From Photobacterium sp. DA100 (GTDB taxonomy: Bacteria > Pseudomonadota > Gammaproteobacteria > Enterobacterales > Vibrionaceae): a DNA stretch of 64,000 bases. The position numbers and the translations under genes were made by a program. Below the pieces are notes generated by a model. The model searched no databases. It saw nothing but the letters and a program-made list of their open reading frames with translations, and was not told the DNA's origin. Numbering within the stretch: position 1 is the first letter of the stretch; the number at the start of each line of letters is the position of its first letter. The stretch lies in contig NZ_CP119423.1 of assembly GCF_029223585.1 (NCBI RefSeq), forward strand, positions 2,418,001 through 2,482,000, read 5' to 3'. This document shows, one piece after another, positions 17,672 through 32,008 of the stretch.

Positions 17672-17705
17672 GAAAAAGGCCTAGCGTTAACGCTAGGCCT
17701 TCAAT
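17672..17705. terminator. Terminator shared by lysE-like gene and tRNA-Cys array
   Basis: The 13-base stem AAGGCCTAGCGTT/AACGCTAGGCCTT is a perfect palindrome. On the minus strand it continues into TTTTTCTTT, ending the tRNA array. It also lies right after the LysE stop. Confidence 0.9.
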
Positions 17706-17707
17706 GA

Positions 17708-17781
17708 TGGAGGCGCGTCCCGGAGTCGAACCGAGGTCCACGGATTTGCAATCCGCTGCATAGCCACTCTGCCAACGCGCC
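17708..17781 (-). tRNA. tRNA-Cys (GCA), array copy 5
   Basis: 74 bases with an encoded CCA. The acceptor stem GGCGCGT pairs with ACGCGCC. The anticodon loop ATTGCAAAT gives GCA, and the T loop TTCGACT is present. It is the last copy in transcription order, next to the terminator. Confidence 0.95.
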
Positions 17782-17852
17782 AAATTGTCCAAGCCCGCCT
17801 ACCCGGCGGCTTGTCTGGTTACTGCCGCCAACGGGCTTCAGAACCGAAATGA

Positions 17853-17926
17853 TGGAGGCGCGTCCCGGAGTCGAACCGAGGTCCACGGATTTGCAATCCG
17901 CTGCATAGCCACTCTGCCAACGCGCC
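17853..17926 (-). tRNA. tRNA-Cys (GCA), array copy 4
   Basis: Identical by eye to the other four copies: anticodon GCA, encoded CCA, 74 bases. Confidence 0.95.
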
Positions 17927-17997
17927 AAATTGTCCAAGCCCGCCTACCCGACGGCTTGTCTGGTTGCTGCCGCCAACGGGCCTCAGAACCGAAATGA

Positions 17998-18071
17998 TGG
18001 AGGCGCGTCCCGGAGTCGAACCGAGGTCCACGGATTTGCAATCCGCTGCATAGCCACTCTGCCAACGCGCC
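17998..18071 (-). tRNA. tRNA-Cys (GCA), array copy 3
   Basis: Identical by eye to the other four copies: anticodon GCA, encoded CCA, 74 bases. Confidence 0.95.
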
Positions 18072-18142
18072 AAATTGTTCAAGCCCGCCTACCCGGCGGC
18101 TTGTTCGGTTACAGCCGCCAACGGGCCTCAGAACCGAAATGA

Positions 18143-18216
18143 TGGAGGCGCGTCCCGGAGTCGAACCGAGGTCCACGGATTTGCAATCCGCTGCATAGCC
18201 ACTCTGCCAACGCGCC
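18143..18216 (-). tRNA. tRNA-Cys (GCA), array copy 2
   Basis: Identical by eye to the other four copies: anticodon GCA, encoded CCA, 74 bases. The spacer on its 5' side is slightly more diverged (ACATTGTCC in place of AAATTGTCC). Confidence 0.95.
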
Positions 18217-18287
18217 ACATTGTCCAAGCCTGCCTACCCGGCGGCTTGTCTGGTTGCTGCCGCCAACGGGCTTCAGAACCGAAATGA

Positions 18288-18361
18288 TGGAGGCGCGTCC
18301 CGGAGTCGAACCGAGGTCCACGGATTTGCAATCCGCTGCATAGCCACTCTGCCAACGCGCC
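18288..18361 (-). tRNA. tRNA-Cys (GCA), array copy 1
   Basis: First copy in transcription order, nearest the promoter. Identical by eye to the others, with anticodon GCA and encoded CCA. Confidence 0.95.
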
Positions 18362-18417
18362 ATCAATTTTGTCAGTACCGCTGAATATCGGCCAATGCCG
18401 CTGCGGTACGGAGGTGT

Positions 18418-25168: not shown

Positions 25169-26443
25169 ATGACCCAAGCAAATAAAAAGCATGTTAGTAA
25201 ATACCAAGATATTCATCACAAAAAATTTCCCGTAGGCACCAAAGGGATATGGGTGGATGAAAAAACGGAGGGAAAATACAGCCTAATTAACGAGGAAATC
25301 AGCCTACCAGCAGCCGTTATCAAGCAACAGTCGATTGATAACAACCTAGACTGGATGCAACAGTTTGCCGAGCACCACAACGTCAAACTGTCTCCGCACG
25401 GCAAGACAACCATGACACCCGCATTCTTTGAGCAGCAGCTTGAAGCTGGCGCTTGGGGTCTGACTGTCGCCACGGCCCCACATGCCGAAGTGGCAGCGTC
25501 AGCTGGTGCCAAACAGATCATGATGGCCAATCAATTGGTGGGTAAGGCCAACATGGCAATCATCAAGCGTCTTCTAACCCAGCATGACGTGACATTCTAT
25601 TGCTGTGTGGATTCCAAAGAGAATGCCGACCAACTGTCTGCGTTCTTTGCTGGCACCGGCGTTACCGTACATGCGCTGATCGAATTTGGGGTTGAAGGCG
25701 GTCGTTGCGGTTGCCGTACTCCGCAGCAGGTTGTTTCACTGGCCCAACACATCGATAGCCTAGATGGGATTTGCCTGGCCGGTATTGAAGTGTATGAAGG
25801 GGTGATCCACGGCGACAATGCCGAACAAGCTATCCGTGAATTCTTGGCAACTACCGTCAAGACGGTCGAACAGCTAAAGGAAGAGGGATTAATCGCACTT
25901 GATAGCCCTATCGTGACTGGCGCAGGCTCTGCTTGGTATGACGTTGTGGCTGAGAGTTTTGCCCAGTGCCAACACCTATTGGCAATCATCCGCCCTGGCT
26001 GTTACCTCATCCACGATACCGGGATCTACCAAGATGCCCAAAAAAATGTCATGGCAAGGGCGCAAGTAAACCAAGGTTATGCCTGTGATTTGGGTGGCGA
26101 TCTTGAATCGGCACTGGAAGTGTGGGCGTATGTGATTTCCCGTCCGGAACTAAACAAAGCAGTGATCGGCCTTGGCAAGCGTGATGTGGCGTTTGATGCA
26201 GGTCTGCCTATTCCAGAGCGGGGCTACCGCAATGGCGAGCAGATTGAAGTGAAGGGGTTGGAAGCAACTGCGATTATGGATCAGCACACGTTTGTCACCG
26301 TTCCCGACGGCTACGACCTGCGTGTTGGCGATGTAATTGCATTTTCTACCTCACATCCATGCCTGACTTTTGATAAGTGGAAATACATCTGCATTGCCGA
26401 TGGAGATTACCAAGTCTCTCGGTTGGTAGAAACCTGCTTCTAA
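25169..26443 (+). CDS. PLP-dependent D-amino-acid deaminase (DSD1/alanine-racemase fold)
   Basis: 424-residue enzyme with the fold-type III barrel and D-serine dehydratase-like C-terminal domain. The PLP lysine is in LSPHGKTTMTP near residue 76. The zinc-binding HPC motif is in STSHPCLTFDKW near the C-terminus. The family eliminates water and ammonia from D-serine, D-threonine or similar substrates. Applied to D-glucosaminic acid this would give 2-keto-3-deoxygluconate, exactly the substrate of the nearby kinase. A TAGGAG ribosome site lies eight bases before the ATG. It is divergent from the regulator. Confidence 0.85.
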   Translation: MTQANKKHVSKYQDIHHKKFPVGTKGIWVDEKTEGKYSLINEEISLPAAVIKQQSIDNNLDWMQQFAEHHNVKLSPHGKTTMTPAFFEQQLEAGAWGLTVATAPHAEVAASAGAKQIMMANQLVGKANMAIIKRLLTQHDVTFYCCVDSKENADQLSAFFAGTGVTVHALIEFGVEGGRCGCRTPQQVVSLAQHIDSLDGICLAGIEVYEGVIHGDNAEQAIREFLATTVKTVEQLKEEGLIALDSPIVTGAGSAWYDVVAESFAQCQHLLAIIRPGCYLIHDTGIYQDAQKNVMARAQVNQGYACDLGGDLESALEVWAYVISRPELNKAVIGLGKRDVAFDAGLPIPERGYRNGEQIEVKGLEATAIMDQHTFVTVPDGYDLRVGDVIAFSTSHPCLTFDKWKYICIADGDYQVSRLVETCF

Positions 26444-26531
26444 CTCGGCATCAATCGTACCTCTAGGGCTATCCCCTTAGAGAAGGCGCTTCGCCACGTT
26501 CGTTTTCTAGCCTTCGCGGCGATGATATTTC

Positions 26532-26560
26532 AGGCAGCAATAAGCCTATTGCTGCCTATT
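26532..26560 (+). terminator. Terminator-like hairpin after the deaminase gene
   Basis: An 11-base perfect stem, AGGCAGCAATA/TATTGCTGCCT, with an AGCC loop is followed by ATT. A second hairpin, CTCTAAGGGG-type, lies at about 26460-26483. Confidence 0.65.
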
Positions 26561-26693
26561 CATTCACACGCACAACATAATCATCTAATACCCTGTTTTT
26601 TATAGGGTTTACTATCAAAAAACTTTGCCTGACAAATCAAGGTGTGTATTATCACTGTGTCATTTCACGTGCCACAAAGGATTAGGCCTGTTT

Positions 26694-26897
26694 ATGAATT
26701 TTACTTACCTCATCGAAGGCACGCTATTTGCCTTGATCGTACTGCTCCTTGGCTTGGCTGGCGGTTCTTTCTTTACCATGGCGACGCTGAAGCGCCCTGC
26801 TGAAGGGAGTAGCCTGGTTGAATCTCGCATCGAATTCGGGTTCTACGGTGTGGCCAGCTTGGTTTTTGCTGGATTGCTCACCGGTATCCTCTGCTGA
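26694..26897 (+). CDS. Small two-helix membrane protein
   Basis: 67 residues with two hydrophobic helices (about 5-28 and 48-66) joined by a short charged loop (LKRPAEGSSLVESRIE). I do not recognise the family. The ATG at 26694 is used; the AAAGGA upstream is somewhat far, at about 12 bases. It stands alone between the deaminase and a convergent VOC gene. Confidence 0.55.
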   Translation: MNFTYLIEGTLFALIVLLLGLAGGSFFTMATLKRPAEGSSLVESRIEFGFYGVASLVFAGLLTGILC

Positions 26898-26922
26898 CTT
26901 CTCTCACTGCCGCCTATCACGC

Positions 26923-27306
26923 TTAGGCTTGGTATAATTCCAGCGGCAGTCCATCCGGGTCTTGAAAGAACGTATACGTTTTTCCTGTATATTCATCGAT
27001 CCGGATCGGCTCTACTTCTACTCCTCTTGATTCAAGATAACCAGTGACCTGTTCAACCGAGTCGACCACAAACGCCAGATGGCGTAACCCTCTAGCCTCG
27101 GGGAAACTTGGCCTTGCAGGCGGGTTAGGAAAAGAAAACAGCTCTATCTGACTGTTGTCGGGCAGTTGCAAGTCCAGCTTCCATGAATCTCGTGCTTCGC
27201 GGTAATGCTCAGCCAACACTTTCAATCCCAAGATGTCGACATAGAAGGCTCTTGACCTTGAGTAGTCTGAGCAGATAATCGCGGCATGGTGTATCGCCTT
27301 TAACAT
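26923..27306 (-). CDS. YaeR-like VOC-family metalloenzyme
   Basis: 127-residue single-domain vicinal-oxygen-chelate protein of the glyoxalase I fold. Likely metal ligands lie in AIHHAAI (His6/His7), QIELFSF (Glu near 54), GLRHLAFVV (His near 75) and GLPLELYQ (Glu near 123). It closely resembles the YaeR group, whose reaction is not established. The start is at 27306. Confidence 0.8.
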   Translation of the reverse strand: MLKAIHHAAIICSDYSRSRAFYVDILGLKVLAEHYREARDSWKLDLQLPDNSQIELFSFPNPPARPSFPEARGLRHLAFVVDSVEQVTGYLESRGVEVEPIRIDEYTGKTYTFFQDPDGLPLELYQA

Positions 27307-27448
27307 AAATAACCTTTAATAATCATCTTATTGTTACTATCTCACCCCTCCCCCCACAACGCAATGGACAGAATACCCATACCTTAGCCGGAAAACAGCC
27401 AAGGTATCTACCCATGCAAAAAAGTGCATTATTTTTGCCTGCAAGGTA

Positions 27449-27477
27449 TTTACAACACAGTTTTTTATTTATATGTT
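27449..27477 (+). promoter_or_regulatory. Promoter of the first brnQ leader
   Basis: TTTACA and TATGTT are 17 bases apart. The same two boxes with the same spacing precede the second brnQ leader. Confidence 0.65.
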
Positions 27478-27513
27478 GTAAGTGACTTCGATACTTATGT
27501 TCAGGAAAACGCC

Positions 27514-27633
27514 GTGTTTCATTTCGCTAATCAAACAACTTGCCAACGCCCAGTTTGCAAACCTGTTATGACTACAGGCGGAACATTCGTATCGCATAAT
27601 ATTATTGCTGCTATTCTAGTGATTATTAACTAG
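27514..27633 (+). CDS. Leader peptide of the first brnQ unit
   Basis: A short frame of 39 residues from a GTG at 27514, preceded by CAGGAAAA. An internal ATG at 27568 would give 21 residues. The peptide ends NIIAAILVIIN: eight of the last ten residues before the final Asn are Ile, Leu, Val or Ala, including five Ile codons. The stop codon overlaps the first arm of a switchable hairpin ahead of brnQ. This is the design of branched-chain amino acid attenuator leaders. The function as a regulatory leader is inferred. Confidence 0.65.
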   Translation: MFHFANQTTCQRPVCKPVMTTGGTFVSHNIIAAILVIIN

Positions 27634-27714
27634 GCTGGCGGCTATTCACCCGTCAGCCAGGCTGACGGGGAGCAATGTCTTTACCCACCTGTTTTTCTTC
27701 AGCCTTTCTGACGG
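27633..27714 (+). promoter_or_regulatory. Alternating hairpin region (attenuator) ahead of the first brnQ
   Basis: Four complementary arms are visible: GGCTGGCGG (27633-27641), CCGTCAGCC (27650-27658), GGCTGACGG (27660-27668) and TCAGCC/CTGACGG (27699-27714). Arm 2 can pair with arm 1, arm 3 or the CTGACGG of arm 4. Translation of the leader would decide between pairings. No long T run follows, so control could be on transcription or on brnQ translation. Confidence 0.6.
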
Positions 27715-27754
27715 TCCATAACAAAAACTGATGTCTATCAGAGGACTTGTCCGA

Positions 27755-29071
27755 ATGACTAAACAAAACACCTTGGCGATTGGCCTAATGACTTTTGCGA
27801 TGTTTCTTGGTGCCGGAAACATCATCTTTCCCCCTTTTCTTGGCCTTCAAGCCGGTACACAATATTTTCCTGCCATGCTTGGCTTTCTCGTTACCGCTGT
27901 CGGTCTACCAGCCCTGACACTGATCGTCATGGGTCGCCTGAGCCATAGCCAGCAGCTTACCGCCGCTTTGCCAAAACCGATGGCCACCGGCTTTTGGGTC
28001 TTGCTGTTTACTGCCATCGGGCCAGCATTTGGTATGCCTCGCGCAGTAACCGTTGCCTATGAGATGGGTATTGCTCCATTTGCCTCAAATGACCTGTTAC
28101 TGCCTTTTTCGTTGGTTTTCGTGACAGTCACCCTACTGCTTGCTTTCCAGCGAGGTAAGTTAGTCGATTACATCGGTAAAGTGATGACACCACTACTGGT
28201 TTTACTGCTGGCAGTACTAGCAATCTCGGCCGTTGTCTCACCCATCAGCCCAATGACCCTACCAAGCGCTGCCTATCAGCATCAAGCTGTCACCCAGGGG
28301 CTTATTCAGGGTTATATGACCATGGATGCTATCGCTGCGGTTGGCTTTGGCTGGGTGATCATCAAGACCATTCAAGACAAGGGAGCCACTTCAACTAACG
28401 GATTGTTTACCAGTACTGTAAAAGTTACTCTGATCTATGCCGCTCTGATGTCGGCGTGCTATCTGGCAATGGCTTATGTCGGAGCAACCTCATCCGCTGT
28501 TGCCAGCGATGCAACCAACGGTGGTGAGATCCTCACGCGCTATGTGGCAAACCTGTTTGGCCTACAAGGACAGTTATTACTCGCGATCATCATAGTGATG
28601 GCATGCCTGACCACTACAGTCGGCCTGACAAATGCCTGTGCTGAGTACTACCAGCAAACATTCAATGCCCCTTTTTCTATCACGGCAACTATCGTCTGCG
28701 CCCTGACCGGCTTGCTTGCCAACTTCGGCCTGGATCAAATCCTCCAGATCAGCCTGCCAGTGATATTGGTACTCTGCCCAGTTGCCATTGCACTGGTTAT
28801 TACGGCACTGGTCGTGAAGCCCGCTTCGTCTCAGCGCGCCATCTTTGTCGCGGCAGTTTCTGTTACGCTGGTATTTGGTAGCATCGATACCCTGCATATT
28901 CTCGGTCTGATCCCGGCACAATGGGAGAGTACTCTCACGGATTTCTTGCCGCTCTATGCCGCCCATGCCAGCTGGCTACTCCCGTGCCTGACAACCCTGC
29001 TCTTTAGCTTTCTGGCTAATGTATCACTGGGGAACCGTAGCAAGCCGGTGGCATCTACTCCGGCGAAATAA
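27755..29071 (+). CDS. brnQ: Branched-chain amino acid carrier, first copy
   Basis: 438-residue BrnQ/LIVCS sodium-coupled importer of Leu, Ile and Val with about 12 membrane helices. The N-terminus NTLAIGLMTFAMFLGAGNII then FPPFLGL is diagnostic, and TMDAIAAVGFGWVIIKTI near residues 197-214 is conserved. The ATG at 27755 aligns with the start of the second copy; an ATG eight codons upstream is possible. An unusually long leader with a peptide precedes it. It is clearly paralogous to the gene at 29603, though with many substitutions. Confidence 0.92.
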   Translation: MTKQNTLAIGLMTFAMFLGAGNIIFPPFLGLQAGTQYFPAMLGFLVTAVGLPALTLIVMGRLSHSQQLTAALPKPMATGFWVLLFTAIGPAFGMPRAVTVAYEMGIAPFASNDLLLPFSLVFVTVTLLLAFQRGKLVDYIGKVMTPLLVLLLAVLAISAVVSPISPMTLPSAAYQHQAVTQGLIQGYMTMDAIAAVGFGWVIIKTIQDKGATSTNGLFTSTVKVTLIYAALMSACYLAMAYVGATSSAVASDATNGGEILTRYVANLFGLQGQLLLAIIIVMACLTTTVGLTNACAEYYQQTFNAPFSITATIVCALTGLLANFGLDQILQISLPVILVLCPVAIALVITALVVKPASSQRAIFVAAVSVTLVFGSIDTLHILGLIPAQWESTLTDFLPLYAAHASWLLPCLTTLLFSFLANVSLGNRSKPVASTPAK

Positions 29072-29105
29072 AGCATAACGTCGCCGAAAACCTAACCAAA
29101 ACACA

Positions 29106-29145
29106 CAAAACCGCCCTTGAGATAACAAGGGCGGTATGCTTTTTG
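29106..29145 (+). terminator. Terminator of the first brnQ
   Basis: A ten-base perfect stem, ACCGCCCTTG/CAAGGGCGGT, is followed by ATGCTTTTT. The second brnQ therefore has its own promoter and leader. Confidence 0.85.
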
Positions 29146-29283
29146 CGGCCACCCGGCACTATCGCATCAGCCGGTAAAACTCCGCCCAATCGCCACATGG
29201 CAATACAAACCGTCAGCCAGTGCCGTGTGGGTAGGATAATATTTACCAAGCACTAAATTTTGTGACTTTTTTCACTTTCCATG

Positions 29284-29312
29284 TTTACAGCTCAGAAAAA
29301 TGCTTATATGTT
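29284..29312 (+). promoter_or_regulatory. Promoter of the second brnQ leader
   Basis: TTTACA and TATGTT are 17 bases apart, identical boxes and spacing to the promoter at 27449. Confidence 0.65.
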
Positions 29313-29373
29313 GTATACCCAAGTAACATCGAGTTACCCAGACTTATTGTTGTTTCGCACTAGGAAAAGCTCA

Positions 29374-29490
29374 ATGCTAGATCTTCTCTCTCAAACCGCT
29401 GCTACTACCGTTTTGGCTTATGCCAAACGTGCGGTTTTGCGTGCAACACAATCTGTCGTCTCTGTCGTCGTCCTAGTCATCGTCATCTAG
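29374..29490 (+). CDS. Leader peptide of the second brnQ unit
   Basis: 38-residue frame from an ATG at 29374, preceded by TAGGAAAAG four bases upstream. The peptide begins MLDLLSQTAATTVLAYAK and ends VVSVVVLVIVI, with seven Val, two Ile and one Leu in its last eleven residues. Its stop codon overlaps the first arm of the downstream hairpin set, exactly as in the first unit. The two leaders share layout but little sequence apart from the hydrophobic end, which supports selection on codons rather than on protein sequence. Confidence 0.8.
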   Translation: MLDLLSQTAATTVLAYAKRAVLRATQSVVSVVVLVIVI

Positions 29491-29567
29491 GCTGGCGGCT
29501 ATTTTCCGTCAGCCAGGCTGACGGAGAATCAACATATCAATACGTTTATCTTCCCAGCCCCTGACGG
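29490..29567 (+). promoter_or_regulatory. Alternating hairpin region (attenuator) ahead of the second brnQ
   Basis: The same arms as in the first unit: GGCTGGCGG (29490-29498), CCGTCAGCC (29506-29514), GGCTGACGG (29516-29524) and CAGCC plus CTGACGGTCC (29555-29570). The arms are conserved while the spacers differ, which indicates a functional RNA switch. Confidence 0.65.
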
Positions 29568-29602
29568 TCCCAAGAATTAAAAGCAAACACAGGGTTCGTC
29601 CA

Positions 29603-30907
29603 ATGAAGACTAACGATACACTTGCCATCGGCTTGATGACCTTCGCCATGTTCCTCGGCGCTGGCAACATTATTTTCCCCCCTTTCCTCGGCTTGGAAGC
29701 CGGCACCCAGCTGCTGCCCGCCATGATTGGTTTCCTGGTTACGGCTGTCGGGTTACCCGCCCTGACCCTGCTTGTTTTTGGCCGCTTGAGCGATAGTAAG
29801 CAGCTGACAAACCCGCTGCCAAGCTGGCTAGCCACCCTGATCTGGGTTGCCCTGCTTACCGCCGTTGGCCCTGCATTCAGTATGCCCCGCGCCGTTACCG
29901 TTGCCTATGAAATGGGGATCAACCCGTTTGTCGATAGCGAGCAGCTACCACTCTTTTCCCTCATTTTTTGTAGCTTGACCTTACTACTGGCCTTTCACCC
30001 GGGTAAGCTGGTTGATTATATCGGCAAGATCATGACACCACTTTTGATCATCATGCTTTGCACACTGGCTATCACCGCTGTGGTCAACCCGCTATCTGCA
30101 CCGCTCGCACCACAGGGTGAATATGTCGATTTTGCTTTTACCCAAGGTTTGGTACAGGGCTATATGACAATGGATGCCATCGCTGCGGTTGGCTTTGGCT
30201 GGGTGATCATCAAAGCCATTAACAACAAAGGGGTAACCGACAAAAAAGCGGTAGGAAAATCGACGTTCAAAGTAGCTTTGATTTATATCATTCTGATGGG
30301 GGCATGTTACTTGGCGATGGGTTATGTCGGTGCCACTTCCAGCCCTATCGCGGCAGGAGCAAGCAATGGTGGTGAACTGCTAAGCCTTTATGTTGCATAC
30401 CATTTTGGTGAATACGGACAATTGCTGCTGGCTGCAATCATTATCATGGCCTGCCTGACGACAACGGTTGGTCTGACTAACGCCTGTACCGAGTATTACC
30501 AAGAAACCTTCGGTGTCCCGTTCCGCCGTACCGCCACGATTGTTGTGGTTCTGACCGGTATTATCGCCAATGTCGGGCTTGATCAAATTCTGGCCCTGAG
30601 CCTGCCGGCTATCCTGGTGCTGTGCCCTGTTGCTATTGCCCTGATCCTTTGTGCGCTGTTCTACCCGGGCCAAACCAAGTACCGCAACACCTATATGGCC
30701 GCCATCGCTATCGCTTTCATCTTCGGCAGCATCGACGCCGCCAGTATCCTTGATGTTGTCCCAAGTGCGCTGGACGGCAGCTTTAACAAATGGCTTCCGC
30801 TGTACTCGGCAAATGCCAGTTGGCTGCTGCCTTGTGCGCTGGTATTGCTTTCAAGAAAATTAAAGCTATCAATAAAGTCTCGGCAGCTAGCAGGCAGTCA
30901 CAACTAA
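29603..30907 (+). CDS. brnQ: Branched-chain amino acid carrier, second copy
   Basis: 434-residue BrnQ paralogue. It shares long blocks with the first copy, including LAIGLMTFAMFLGAGNIIFP near residues 7-26, QGYMTMDAIAAVGFGWVII near 188-206 and CLTTTVGLTNACTEYYQETF near 274-293. It has its own promoter, leader peptide and hairpin set, so the pair arose by duplication of the whole regulated unit. The C-termini differ most, as expected if the copies diverged in substrate preference or affinity. Function as a Leu/Ile/Val importer is family knowledge. Confidence 0.92.
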   Translation: MKTNDTLAIGLMTFAMFLGAGNIIFPPFLGLEAGTQLLPAMIGFLVTAVGLPALTLLVFGRLSDSKQLTNPLPSWLATLIWVALLTAVGPAFSMPRAVTVAYEMGINPFVDSEQLPLFSLIFCSLTLLLAFHPGKLVDYIGKIMTPLLIIMLCTLAITAVVNPLSAPLAPQGEYVDFAFTQGLVQGYMTMDAIAAVGFGWVIIKAINNKGVTDKKAVGKSTFKVALIYIILMGACYLAMGYVGATSSPIAAGASNGGELLSLYVAYHFGEYGQLLLAAIIIMACLTTTVGLTNACTEYYQETFGVPFRRTATIVVVLTGIIANVGLDQILALSLPAILVLCPVAIALILCALFYPGQTKYRNTYMAAIAIAFIFGSIDAASILDVVPSALDGSFNKWLPLYSANASWLLPCALVLLSRKLKLSIKSRQLAGSHN

Positions 30908-30913
30908 AACGAA

Positions 30914-30953
30914 AAAGGGAAAATACAGTGTCCCCACTCGTATTTTCCCTTTA
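30914..30953. terminator. Terminator between convergent brnQ and nrfF
   Basis: A 13-base perfect stem, AAAGGGAAAATAC/GTATTTTCCCTTT, with a 13-base loop lies seven bases past the brnQ stop. Confidence 0.75.
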
Positions 30954-30983
30954 CTGGCAAAAAACTCACCACGAAGCGAGCGC

Positions 30984-31457
30984 CTACTCTCTTGCCCGCT
31001 GCTGGCGTCTAATCGTGCCCCAGATAATTGATCCAAACAGGGCGAGCAATAAGAATGGTCCCCCCCACAATAAATACGTTTGCGGGTTCAAACGTGGCTT
31101 ATACAACACAAAATCGCCAAACCGTGACGTCATAAACTCAATCACCTCCTCGTCACTTCGTCCGGCATCAACCATTTGATAGACCTTGAGCCGCAAGTCT
31201 TTCGCCACTGGCGAATTCGACTCAATCAGGTTCTGATTCTGGCATTGCGGACAGCGCAAGCGGCGTGATAGCTCGATTGCCCGCCGCTGCTCGGCAGAAG
31301 AGCGGAAGCGAAACGTCTCCACGGATTCAACTAACTGTGTATCGGCAGCGACAAAAATCTGATCTGTCTGTGCCGCCGCTGGCATACTCATGGCTAGCCC
31401 CCCCAGGCACAAAACCAGAAGCACCGTTTTTATTTGACTAACCAGATTTCTAACCAT
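30984..31457 (-). CDS. nrfF: Haem lyase subunit NrfF/CcmH-like
   Basis: 157-residue periplasmic, membrane-anchored thiol protein that helps attach haem to cytochrome c. An N-terminal signal segment is followed by the conserved LRCPQCQNQNLIES with redox pair CPQC, and a C-terminal transmembrane helix (TYLLWGGPFLLLALFGSII). The start at 31457 overlaps the preceding gene by eight bases and has GAGGT upstream. In nrf loci this subunit works with NrfE on the CXXCK haem of NrfA. It is the last gene of the leftward nrf operon. Confidence 0.87.
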   Translation of the reverse strand: MVRNLVSQIKTVLLVLCLGGLAMSMPAAAQTDQIFVAADTQLVESVETFRFRSSAEQRRAIELSRRLRCPQCQNQNLIESNSPVAKDLRLKVYQMVDAGRSDEEVIEFMTSRFGDFVLYKPRLNPQTYLLWGGPFLLLALFGSIIWGTIRRQQRARE

Positions 31458-31995
31458 TGGTGACCTCTTCCTGCTGTAAGCGCTCAATCACCGGGACGAA
31501 CTCCCGTTGCCATATGGCTTCATCCAATGGGCCAAGATAGCGGTACCGGATCATGCCATGGTTATCGATAAGGTAACTTTCCGGGGTGCCGTATACGCCC
31601 AAATCCAATGCCAGGGCTCCTTTGGGATCGTACAACACCGCTTGGTAAGGGTTGCCACTTTGGGTTAATTCACGCATTGCCGATTGGCGGTTATCCCGAT
31701 AATTGAGCCCCACAATGGCAACATCCCCTTGCTGCGCCAGCTGCATCAGAAACTGATGCTCGCTTTTGCATACGGCACACCAAGAAGCCCAGACATTGAG
31801 CAAATGCAGTTGTCCCGCCAGCAAGGTTTGATCCGCCACACCCGGCTTATCCAGCCGCGGCAAGCTAAAAGCTGGCACTGGCTTCTCCTCAAGTTTTGAC
31901 GTCTGGCCATCTTGGGTAAGCATCACCGCCAAGCTAATCACTGCCAGAATCGCCACGACAACAGCCAAAGGAAGGTATCGGCTCGTCAATCTCAT
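31450..31995 (-). CDS. DsbE/CcmG-like periplasmic thioredoxin
   Basis: 181-residue protein with one N-terminal membrane anchor (LPLAVVVAILAVISLAVML) and a thioredoxin fold. The active site is ASWCAVCKSE near residues 71-80, and the cis-proline region YGTPESYLID lies later. These proteins reduce apocytochrome cysteines before haem ligation. It lies between nrfE and nrfF, overlapping the latter, as in several nrf operons. Confidence 0.88.
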   Translation of the reverse strand: MRLTSRYLPLAVVVAILAVISLAVMLTQDGQTSKLEEKPVPAFSLPRLDKPGVADQTLLAGQLHLLNVWASWCAVCKSEHQFLMQLAQQGDVAIVGLNYRDNRQSAMRELTQSGNPYQAVLYDPKGALALDLGVYGTPESYLIDNHGMIRYRYLGPLDEAIWQREFVPVIERLQQEEVTNG

Positions 31996-32008
31996 ATCTT
32001 GTCCACCA

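Follow-up and report, generated by a model that had tools for sequence, protein, structure and literature searches.

Two neighbouring genes in the genome of Photobacterium sp. DA100 raise the question of whether short leader peptides may control amino-acid import, what such leaders would sense and at which step they would act. The stretch concerned, hereafter the window, comprises the 64,000 nucleotides at positions 2,418,001 to 2,482,000 of contig NZ_CP119423.1, and the genes are two copies of brnQ, each encoding a branched-chain amino-acid transporter. An original prediction, made from the window alone, had described a leader peptide and a switchable hairpin before each copy, and had proposed attenuation of the importer by isoleucine, valine and leucine supply. 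Comparison with related genomes now indicates that a conserved leader device on both window brnQ genes is real. It is most likely a ribosome-sensing leader acting on transporter translation, with isoleucine, valine and leucine versions found on paralogues.

Architecture of the two leader units

Both brnQ products match Pfam PF05525 (396 and 401 bits against a cut-off of 22.3). In the transporter tree described below, brnQ 1 (27755..29071; E=3e-118) falls in the isoleucine clade, and brnQ 2 (29603..30907; E=1e-119) forms a clade of its own nested within it. These genes and all features of the two units lie on the plus strand. The start of brnQ 1 is most likely position 27755, on the 3' side of its ribosome-binding site (RBS), rather than 27731. 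Both window genes start with ATG; the leader-bearing brnQ genes of relatives often seem to start with TTG or GTG, these being starts assigned by script.

The leader frames of 38 to 39 codons with Ile/Val/Leu-rich ends were found as predicted. Leader peptide 1 (27514..27633) has a GTG start, 39 codons, a TAG stop and the Ile-type end NIIAAILVIIN; homologues were recognised, for example L084 and L087, both with an ATG start. Leader peptide 2 (29374..29490) has an ATG start, 38 codons, a TAG stop and the Val-rich end VVSVVVLVIVI. At least eight Ile, Val or Leu residues among the last 11 were seen in two of the 722 short-frame ends of the window, namely leader 2 and a membrane-protein frame at 172-543; the end of leader 1, with seven of 11, falls just below that cut.

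The stop overlapping an arm and the further hairpin arms are likewise present in both copies, which share the arm sequences GGCTGGCGG, CCGTCAGCC, GGCTGACGG and CTGACGG. In unit 1, six segments may be followed from the leader codons to the gene. Segment 1 is a codon-region arm (GCTGCTATTCTAG, 27607..27619), placed by folding and by the swap test below, whose partner is the stop/arm A region; arm A, segment 2 (27633..27641), shares the final base of the leader 1 stop. Arm B, segment 3 (CCGTCAGCC, 27650..27658), and arm C, segment 4 (GGCTGACGG, 27660..27668), are separated by a single A and together form a near-perfect inverted repeat. A short arm D' (CAGCC, 27700..27704) can pair with C, and arm D, segment 5 (CTGACGGTCC, 27708..27717), is complementary both to B and to the RBS of brnQ 1, which lies within segment 6 (AGAGGACTTGTCC, 27740..27752). 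Unit 2 repeats this layout, with the codon-region arm GTCGTCGTCCTAG (29464..29476; again with the stop/arm A as its partner by folding and the swap test), arms A (29490..29498), B (29506..29514), C (29516..29524), D' (29555..29559) and D (CTGACGGTCC, 29561..29570), and the ribosome-binding region of brnQ 2, CAGGGTTCGTCC (29590..29601). The original prediction had included neither the pairing of the codon region with A nor the complementarity between D and the brnQ RBS, nor a leucine-type copy elsewhere in the genome.

A promoter-like TTTACA-N17-TATGTT precedes each unit (27449..27477 and 29284..29312), as had been claimed. Matches of this type are at chance level within 26000-32000 (8 against 6.6 +- 2.5 in shuffles). 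A pattern similar to these putative promoters recurs before related leaders: it was seen 5' of all eight copy-2-type leaders and of 30 of 65 Ile-labelled rows (three of which are dropped in other counts), compared with 28 of 2680 mononucleotide shuffles, and in 13 of 49 Val-type and none of 12 Leu-type leaders. The scan covered 350 bases before brnQ, and promoters further out may escape this count. Between the units, a hairpin resembling a terminator by its pattern (29110..29135) was noted, and units 1 and 2 therefore look like separate transcripts.

No Rfam family matches the brnQ leader device. Over the whole window, seven Rfam matches exceeded the gathering thresholds, all of them tRNA, and between 27400 and 29620 the single match up to E=1 was to a small-RNA model on the opposite strand (29107-29167, E=0.34).

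Conservation and spread of the leaders

The leaders proved to be conserved across related genomes, a test that the original prediction had set. When named genomes were searched with the protein, 20 loci were obtained, and at all 20 such a leader stood before brnQ; they come from Photobacterium, Aliivibrio, Vibrio, Moritella and Kistimonas, the last with a diverged form before both of its brnQ genes. The survey was then based on the brnQ upstream regions of 329 Vibrionaceae genomes and on three RNA models, R1 for the Ile type (built from 36 leaders), R2 for the Val type (26 leaders) and R3 for the Leu type (11 leaders). At E<=0.01 these matched 61, 66 and 68 of the 329 genomes, respectively, counts that include weak matches and cross-matches between types. 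Position relative to brnQ was checked for the R1 and R2 matches only: 63 of the 64 strong R1 matches (E<=2.3e-14) and all 49 strong R2 matches (E<=6.3e-17) lie directly 5' of a brnQ on the same strand. The remaining R1 match, L178 (G009:C462:10600-10960), is followed by a brnQ-like TTG start that meets a stop at once; this brnQ may be disrupted or incomplete, or the contig may derive from a mixed assembly. Approached from the gene, the Vibrionaceae brnQ most like copy 2 (E<=2.2e-119) carry a leader at 112 of 113 places, and the sole leaderless place begins 7 bases into its contig. R1 and R2 leaders occur at most 6 kb apart on the same strand in 25 genomes.

A short frame with relevant codons before a related gene, as an attenuator has, was recognised in 131 upstream regions, whose leader frames, each ending in branched-chain codons, comprise 122 distinct sequences; the other nine are letter-for-letter repeats, some from one genome under two labels. 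This set leaves out L004 (no leader), L050 and L178, with L177 being the same locus as L050, and the stop positions of L122, L125, L126 and L159 were placed by hand.

Beyond the Vibrionaceae, nine loci from other families of the order were examined, a small part of the 179 genomes matched in that search. An Ile-type leader was present at six of them, five from one family (L193-L197, one of which matches a Moritella leader) and one from another (L189), and no such leader was found at L202, L204 or L215. The class-wide search gave matches at E<=1e-80 in four of 274 genomes. Among more distant Vibrionaceae brnQ, L199 has a Leu-type leader, and no leader of this kind was recognised at L200, L201, L203, L205-L214 or L216. 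Frames with seven or eight Ile, Val or Leu in their last 12 residues, ending 80-193 bases before brnQ and without matching arms, were seen at L213, L214 and L216; these could be other leaders or chance.

Whether the leaders are themselves under coding constraint was judged from the ratio of nonsynonymous to synonymous polymorphism (pN/pS). Over the N-terminal part, the Aliivibrio Ile set gave 0.86 and the three other sets 0.31, 0.42 and 0.50, so that coding constraint appears to be supported but not uniform.

Evidence for competing RNA helices

The pairing of the arms was assessed by a swap test, in which helix partners were exchanged among 32 non-redundant leaders, within class, over 5000 permutations. 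Four helices were more stable with their native partners than in any permutation: codons:A (native -14.6 against a mean of -13.2 kcal/mol), B:C (-20.7 against -18.9), C:D (-14.9 against -13.3) and D:RBS (-10.4 against -8.9). The signal was weaker for A:B (p=0.022) and B:D (p=0.016), perhaps because these arms hardly vary. Control pairings gave no signal among the same leaders (A:D 0.45, B:RBS 0.78, C:RBS 0.51).

The D:RBS link was examined with two RBS windows, the narrower giving p=5e-5 and the other no permutation in 20000 that reached the native value. Its complementarity is maintained through different letters in different groups, namely GGUCC/GGACU, ACCUGC/GCAGGU, GCCCU/AGGGC and GGCUCCA/UGGAGUC. 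The pairing of a switch arm with the RBS of the next gene, which characterises a translational attenuator, is strong in many groups, not in all.

For the B:C stem, the cores of both arms had been located by patterns that favour pairing, and hence only the six flanking positions were counted. Paired cells numbered 75 of 96 in the Ile group (against 52, 69 and 52 when the arms were slid by +1, -1 and +2), 45 of 54 in the Val group (against 25, 35 and 30) and 19 of 30 in the Leu group (against 12, 16 and 11). Of the cells of this stem in the Val alignment, 90.2% are paired compared with 82.2% after shuffling, and 23 double changes were counted compared with 10.6, neither being reached in 500 shuffles; exchange of A-U for U-A was among the changes seen.

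When the window copies were folded as single strands, the z-scores were -5.2 and -4.0 for longer stretches and -3.5 and -2.8 for shorter ones, with no preference between B:C and B:D. The swap tests and the covariation of the stem point to mutually exclusive arms, among which the position of the leader ribosome would select. The retention of codon type, stop position and arms on both paralogues, as originally described, now extends to arms that covary in the swap tests; on this comparative evidence the leaders, the arms and the covariation of most links, including D:RBS, appear well founded.

Codon classes and the transporter tree

The original prediction had treated isoleucine, valine and leucine jointly; a split was found instead. 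Leader ends fall into three classes, Ile (such as IIAVILVIIN), Val (SVVVVI) and Leu (ILLLSLKLIQS), and the four brnQ genes of Photobacterium sp. DA100 are divided amongst them: copy 1 has an Ile-type leader, copy 2 the Val-rich one, the third (L003) a leucine-codon leader, NLLLLLSLGLIRG, of similar arm layout upstream of G000:C1:3645076-3646305, and the fourth (L004) none that was recognised. The Leu-codon leader belongs to a more distant brnQ clade, which is represented in this genome by that third gene.

When 53 chosen BrnQ proteins were placed in a tree, those of the Leu, Val and copy-2 types and those lacking a leader each fell on one side of a branch, and the copy 2 group was nested in the Ile clade. 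A long-branch warning applies to L218, to L202 and to the point where Kistimonas joins, and the five leaderless rows include L218, whose upstream region was unread. Leader codon class tracks transporter clade in this tree, the exception being copy 2, with its Val-rich leader inside the Ile clade; a text rule had assigned L103 to the Ile class, although its protein (L239) is in the Val clade.

Since copy 2 lies within the Ile clade and yet bears a Val-rich leader, Val codons seem to have been regained in the lineage of the window, and the simplest reading of the sequences is that a Val-type leader arose anew in the copy 2 lineage. A copy-2-type gene adjoins an Ile-type gene in six genomes (G000, G042, G049, G051, G061 and G071). 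In those six the Val model found nothing better than E=7e-10, and its matches at E<0.005 are all accounted for by the leaders of copy 1 and copy 2. A fuller account would have three importer paralogues each under a leader switch reading Ile, Val or Leu, through a six-segment helix chain that ends on the gene's own RBS, with the Val-reading member lost and then rebuilt by duplication of the Ile type and a change of leader codons from Ile to Val. This account as a whole is given tentatively, with slightly less than an even chance of being correct.

Endpoint and direction of control

No intrinsic terminator, by a rule of GC-rich hairpin plus U-run, was found in either window copy, in agreement with the lack of a long T run noted originally, and the endpoint had accordingly been left between translation and Rho. 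The D:RBS covariation together with the absence of a U-run terminator favours control of brnQ translation initiation. The leader switch would thus act through arm D rather than on transcription termination, an endpoint in vivo that we infer, as we do ribosome stalling and the sign of the response.

The mechanism considered probable is a ribosome-sensing leader on each brnQ, in which stalling sets a helix chain and the D:RBS link controls initiation. Whenever the charged tRNA concerned runs short, the leader ribosome would slow, at Ile and Val codons in copy 1 or mainly at Val codons in copy 2. Where it stands would then decide if arm A can capture arm B, and this capture would in turn determine the choice among the competing helices codons:A, A:B, B:C or B:D, C:D' and D:RBS. 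The last link, D paired with the brnQ RBS, would set translation initiation, and paralogues on separate transporter clades would be wired to different amino acids through their Ile, Val and Leu leaders.

Two chains can be drawn from these helices. In A-B-D-RBS, B:D frees the RBS and starvation closes it; in A-B-C-D'-RBS, C:D' frees the RBS and starvation opens it. The mean overlap with D:RBS favours the former in the Ile group (B:D 4.8 bases, C:D 0.9) and the latter in the Leu group (1.8 and 5.6), with the Val group in between (3.6 and 3.0).

A number of observations weigh against the proposed mechanism. With the narrower RBS window, copy 1 ranks 23rd of 32 in pairing with its own RBS, and three Val leaders (L122, L128 and L163) each rank 32nd of 32. 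Two of the five measures on the Val alignment are at shuffle level (double-changed pairs 189/500, further pair types 151/500), and in the Ile class C:D' and D:RBS barely overlap, so that they need not exclude each other. Over the last 14 leader codons pN/pS is low only in the Ile set (0.12). Two other sets gave 0.77 and 1.42, and the remaining one, which showed no synonymous change, has no defined ratio; the bases of these codons are constrained by RNA pairing as well. Equilibrium folding, in which the Kistimonas leaders L022 and L023 were counted as Ile and Val, gave little difference in accessibility of the Shine-Dalgarno (SD) sequence between stalled and terminating states. In the Ile class 57 of 62 leaders had a more accessible SD with a terminating ribosome, the difference exceeding 0.2 in 17, including window copy 1 (0.39 terminating, 0.15 stalled). 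The same direction was seen in five of eight copy-2-type leaders, by more than 0.2 in two, with window copy 2 unchanged at 0.48. No Val leader out of 49 shifted by more than 0.2, and in the Leu class four of 12 shifted by more than that amount in the opposite direction, the stalled state being the more open. A simple co-transcriptional simulation of the 32 leaders also gave no consistent difference: in tallies that exclude the two Kistimonas leaders, the stalled state was more open in two of 12 Ile, one of four copy-2-type, three of nine Val and two of five Leu leaders, and the terminating state in two, two, none and one, respectively. Lastly, the spacer between C and D' appears pyrimidine-rich, by eye and unscored, and would be usable by Rho.

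Folding and simulation disagree between the classes and favour no single sign of regulation. The leader device behind the proposed attenuation is supported; a lowering of importer expression by Ile/Val/Leu supply is still only a proposal, given folding signs that are opposite between classes and a simulation without a clear switch. Either shortage or supply might induce import. A precedent for a starvation response is the regulation of amino-acid importers by T-boxes in other bacteria, and because of this analogy we lean slightly towards starvation raising brnQ, against which the modelled equilibrium folding of the Ile class points.

Alternative explanations

The same leaders might serve Rho-dependent attenuation, in which access of Rho to a G-poor, pyrimidine-rich spacer depends on the leader ribosome and on the hairpin B:C or C:D, and the effect falls on brnQ transcription. 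The lack of a U-run terminator in the window copies suits this explanation as well, as does the pyrimidine-rich spacer seen in the alignments. It leaves the covariation of D with the brnQ RBS unexplained, however, and the spacer is short (about 30 bases), so we regard Rho as unlikely to be the endpoint; of the two endpoints originally suggested, translation is the one favoured by that covariation.

The leader might instead chiefly recruit ribosomes, raising brnQ translation through reinitiation or coupling, with the codon run incidental. The leaders do lie close 5' of brnQ, and such a role of leader genes has been proposed (PMC4833913). This seems quite improbable, given that neither the separate Ile, Val and Leu codon runs that match transporter clades nor the covarying competing arms would be explained.

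The general order of the elements, a codon run followed by an antiterminator-like arm and a hairpin, is also that of the classical transcription attenuators of ilvGMEDA and leuABCD, which carry an intrinsic terminator. Leaders of that type do occur in Photobacterium sp. DA100 and served as positive controls: those of ilvG (L227, about 819-970) and leuA (L228, about 537-665) end in a GC hairpin and U-run (MQFMANALLLIINVIVVLISLRGGRAGVN and MKTRFSSLLLSLLLIVTRSRG, respectively). Among the 131 brnQ leaders, by contrast, weak terminator-like sites were found in ten, of which neither window copy is one and seven share a single position, 43 bases past the stop, within a single genus; a classical attenuator on brnQ is thus very improbable.

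The least probable explanation takes the near-perfect B-C palindrome for an operator in the DNA, bound by a transcription factor, with the leader frame a by-product. It was set aside, since G-U pairing maintains several of the B:C pairs and other helices covary as well; the flanks also vary on both sides, and the palindrome sits past the leader stop, at more than 150 bases from the promoter-like site.

Other features of the window

Five tRNA-Cys (GCA) genes were observed at 17703-18362 on the minus strand, in a 145-base tandem repeat with about 96% matching. Positions 773-2164 hold what we take to be a radical-SAM/SPASM-like frame with a C-terminal metal-binding motif, adjoining two small membrane proteins.

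Comparison with known systems

If translational control by these leaders is confirmed, they would constitute a natural set of amino-acid sensors on related importers, and the codons could reveal the amino acid that each paralogue handles. One genome would then hold both terminator-type ilv and leu attenuators and a leader-peptide switch whose endpoint is the initiation of transporter translation.

The enterobacterial ilvGMEDA and leuABCD operons are controlled by ribosome-mediated attenuators, with which the brnQ device shares a short leader of Ile/Val/Leu codons, competing arms and a stalled ribosome that would free arm A. It differs in being placed on a transporter, in lacking a U-run terminator in the window copies, in its extra arms C, D' and D towards the RBS, and in having Ile, Val and Leu versions on paralogues. 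In translational attenuation of the ermC/cat type, a stalled leader ribosome rearranges a helix chain that ends at the RBS of the next gene. The brnQ device would likewise be a helix chain ending at the downstream RBS and driven by a stalled leader ribosome, but its signal would be uncharged tRNA instead of an antibiotic, and it has more segments.

In titles and abstract openings, no earlier description of a brnQ leader device in these bacteria was recognised, older comparative work on proteobacterial attenuators lying outside that search. A different control, lowering of BrnQ by GcvB, is reported for Vibrio alginolyticus (PMC9409037). The Corynebacterium ilvB upstream open reading frame motif (PMC11109978) resembles the brnQ device in its leader rich in Ile/Leu/Val codons and differs in having an intrinsic terminator and ilvB as its target. 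In the LEU element of actinobacterial leuA (PMC1262725), which precedes a biosynthetic gene, it is the codon run that forms the pairing with the SD, at the base of a pseudoknot, whereas the brnQ device would use a separate D arm on the RBS of an importer.

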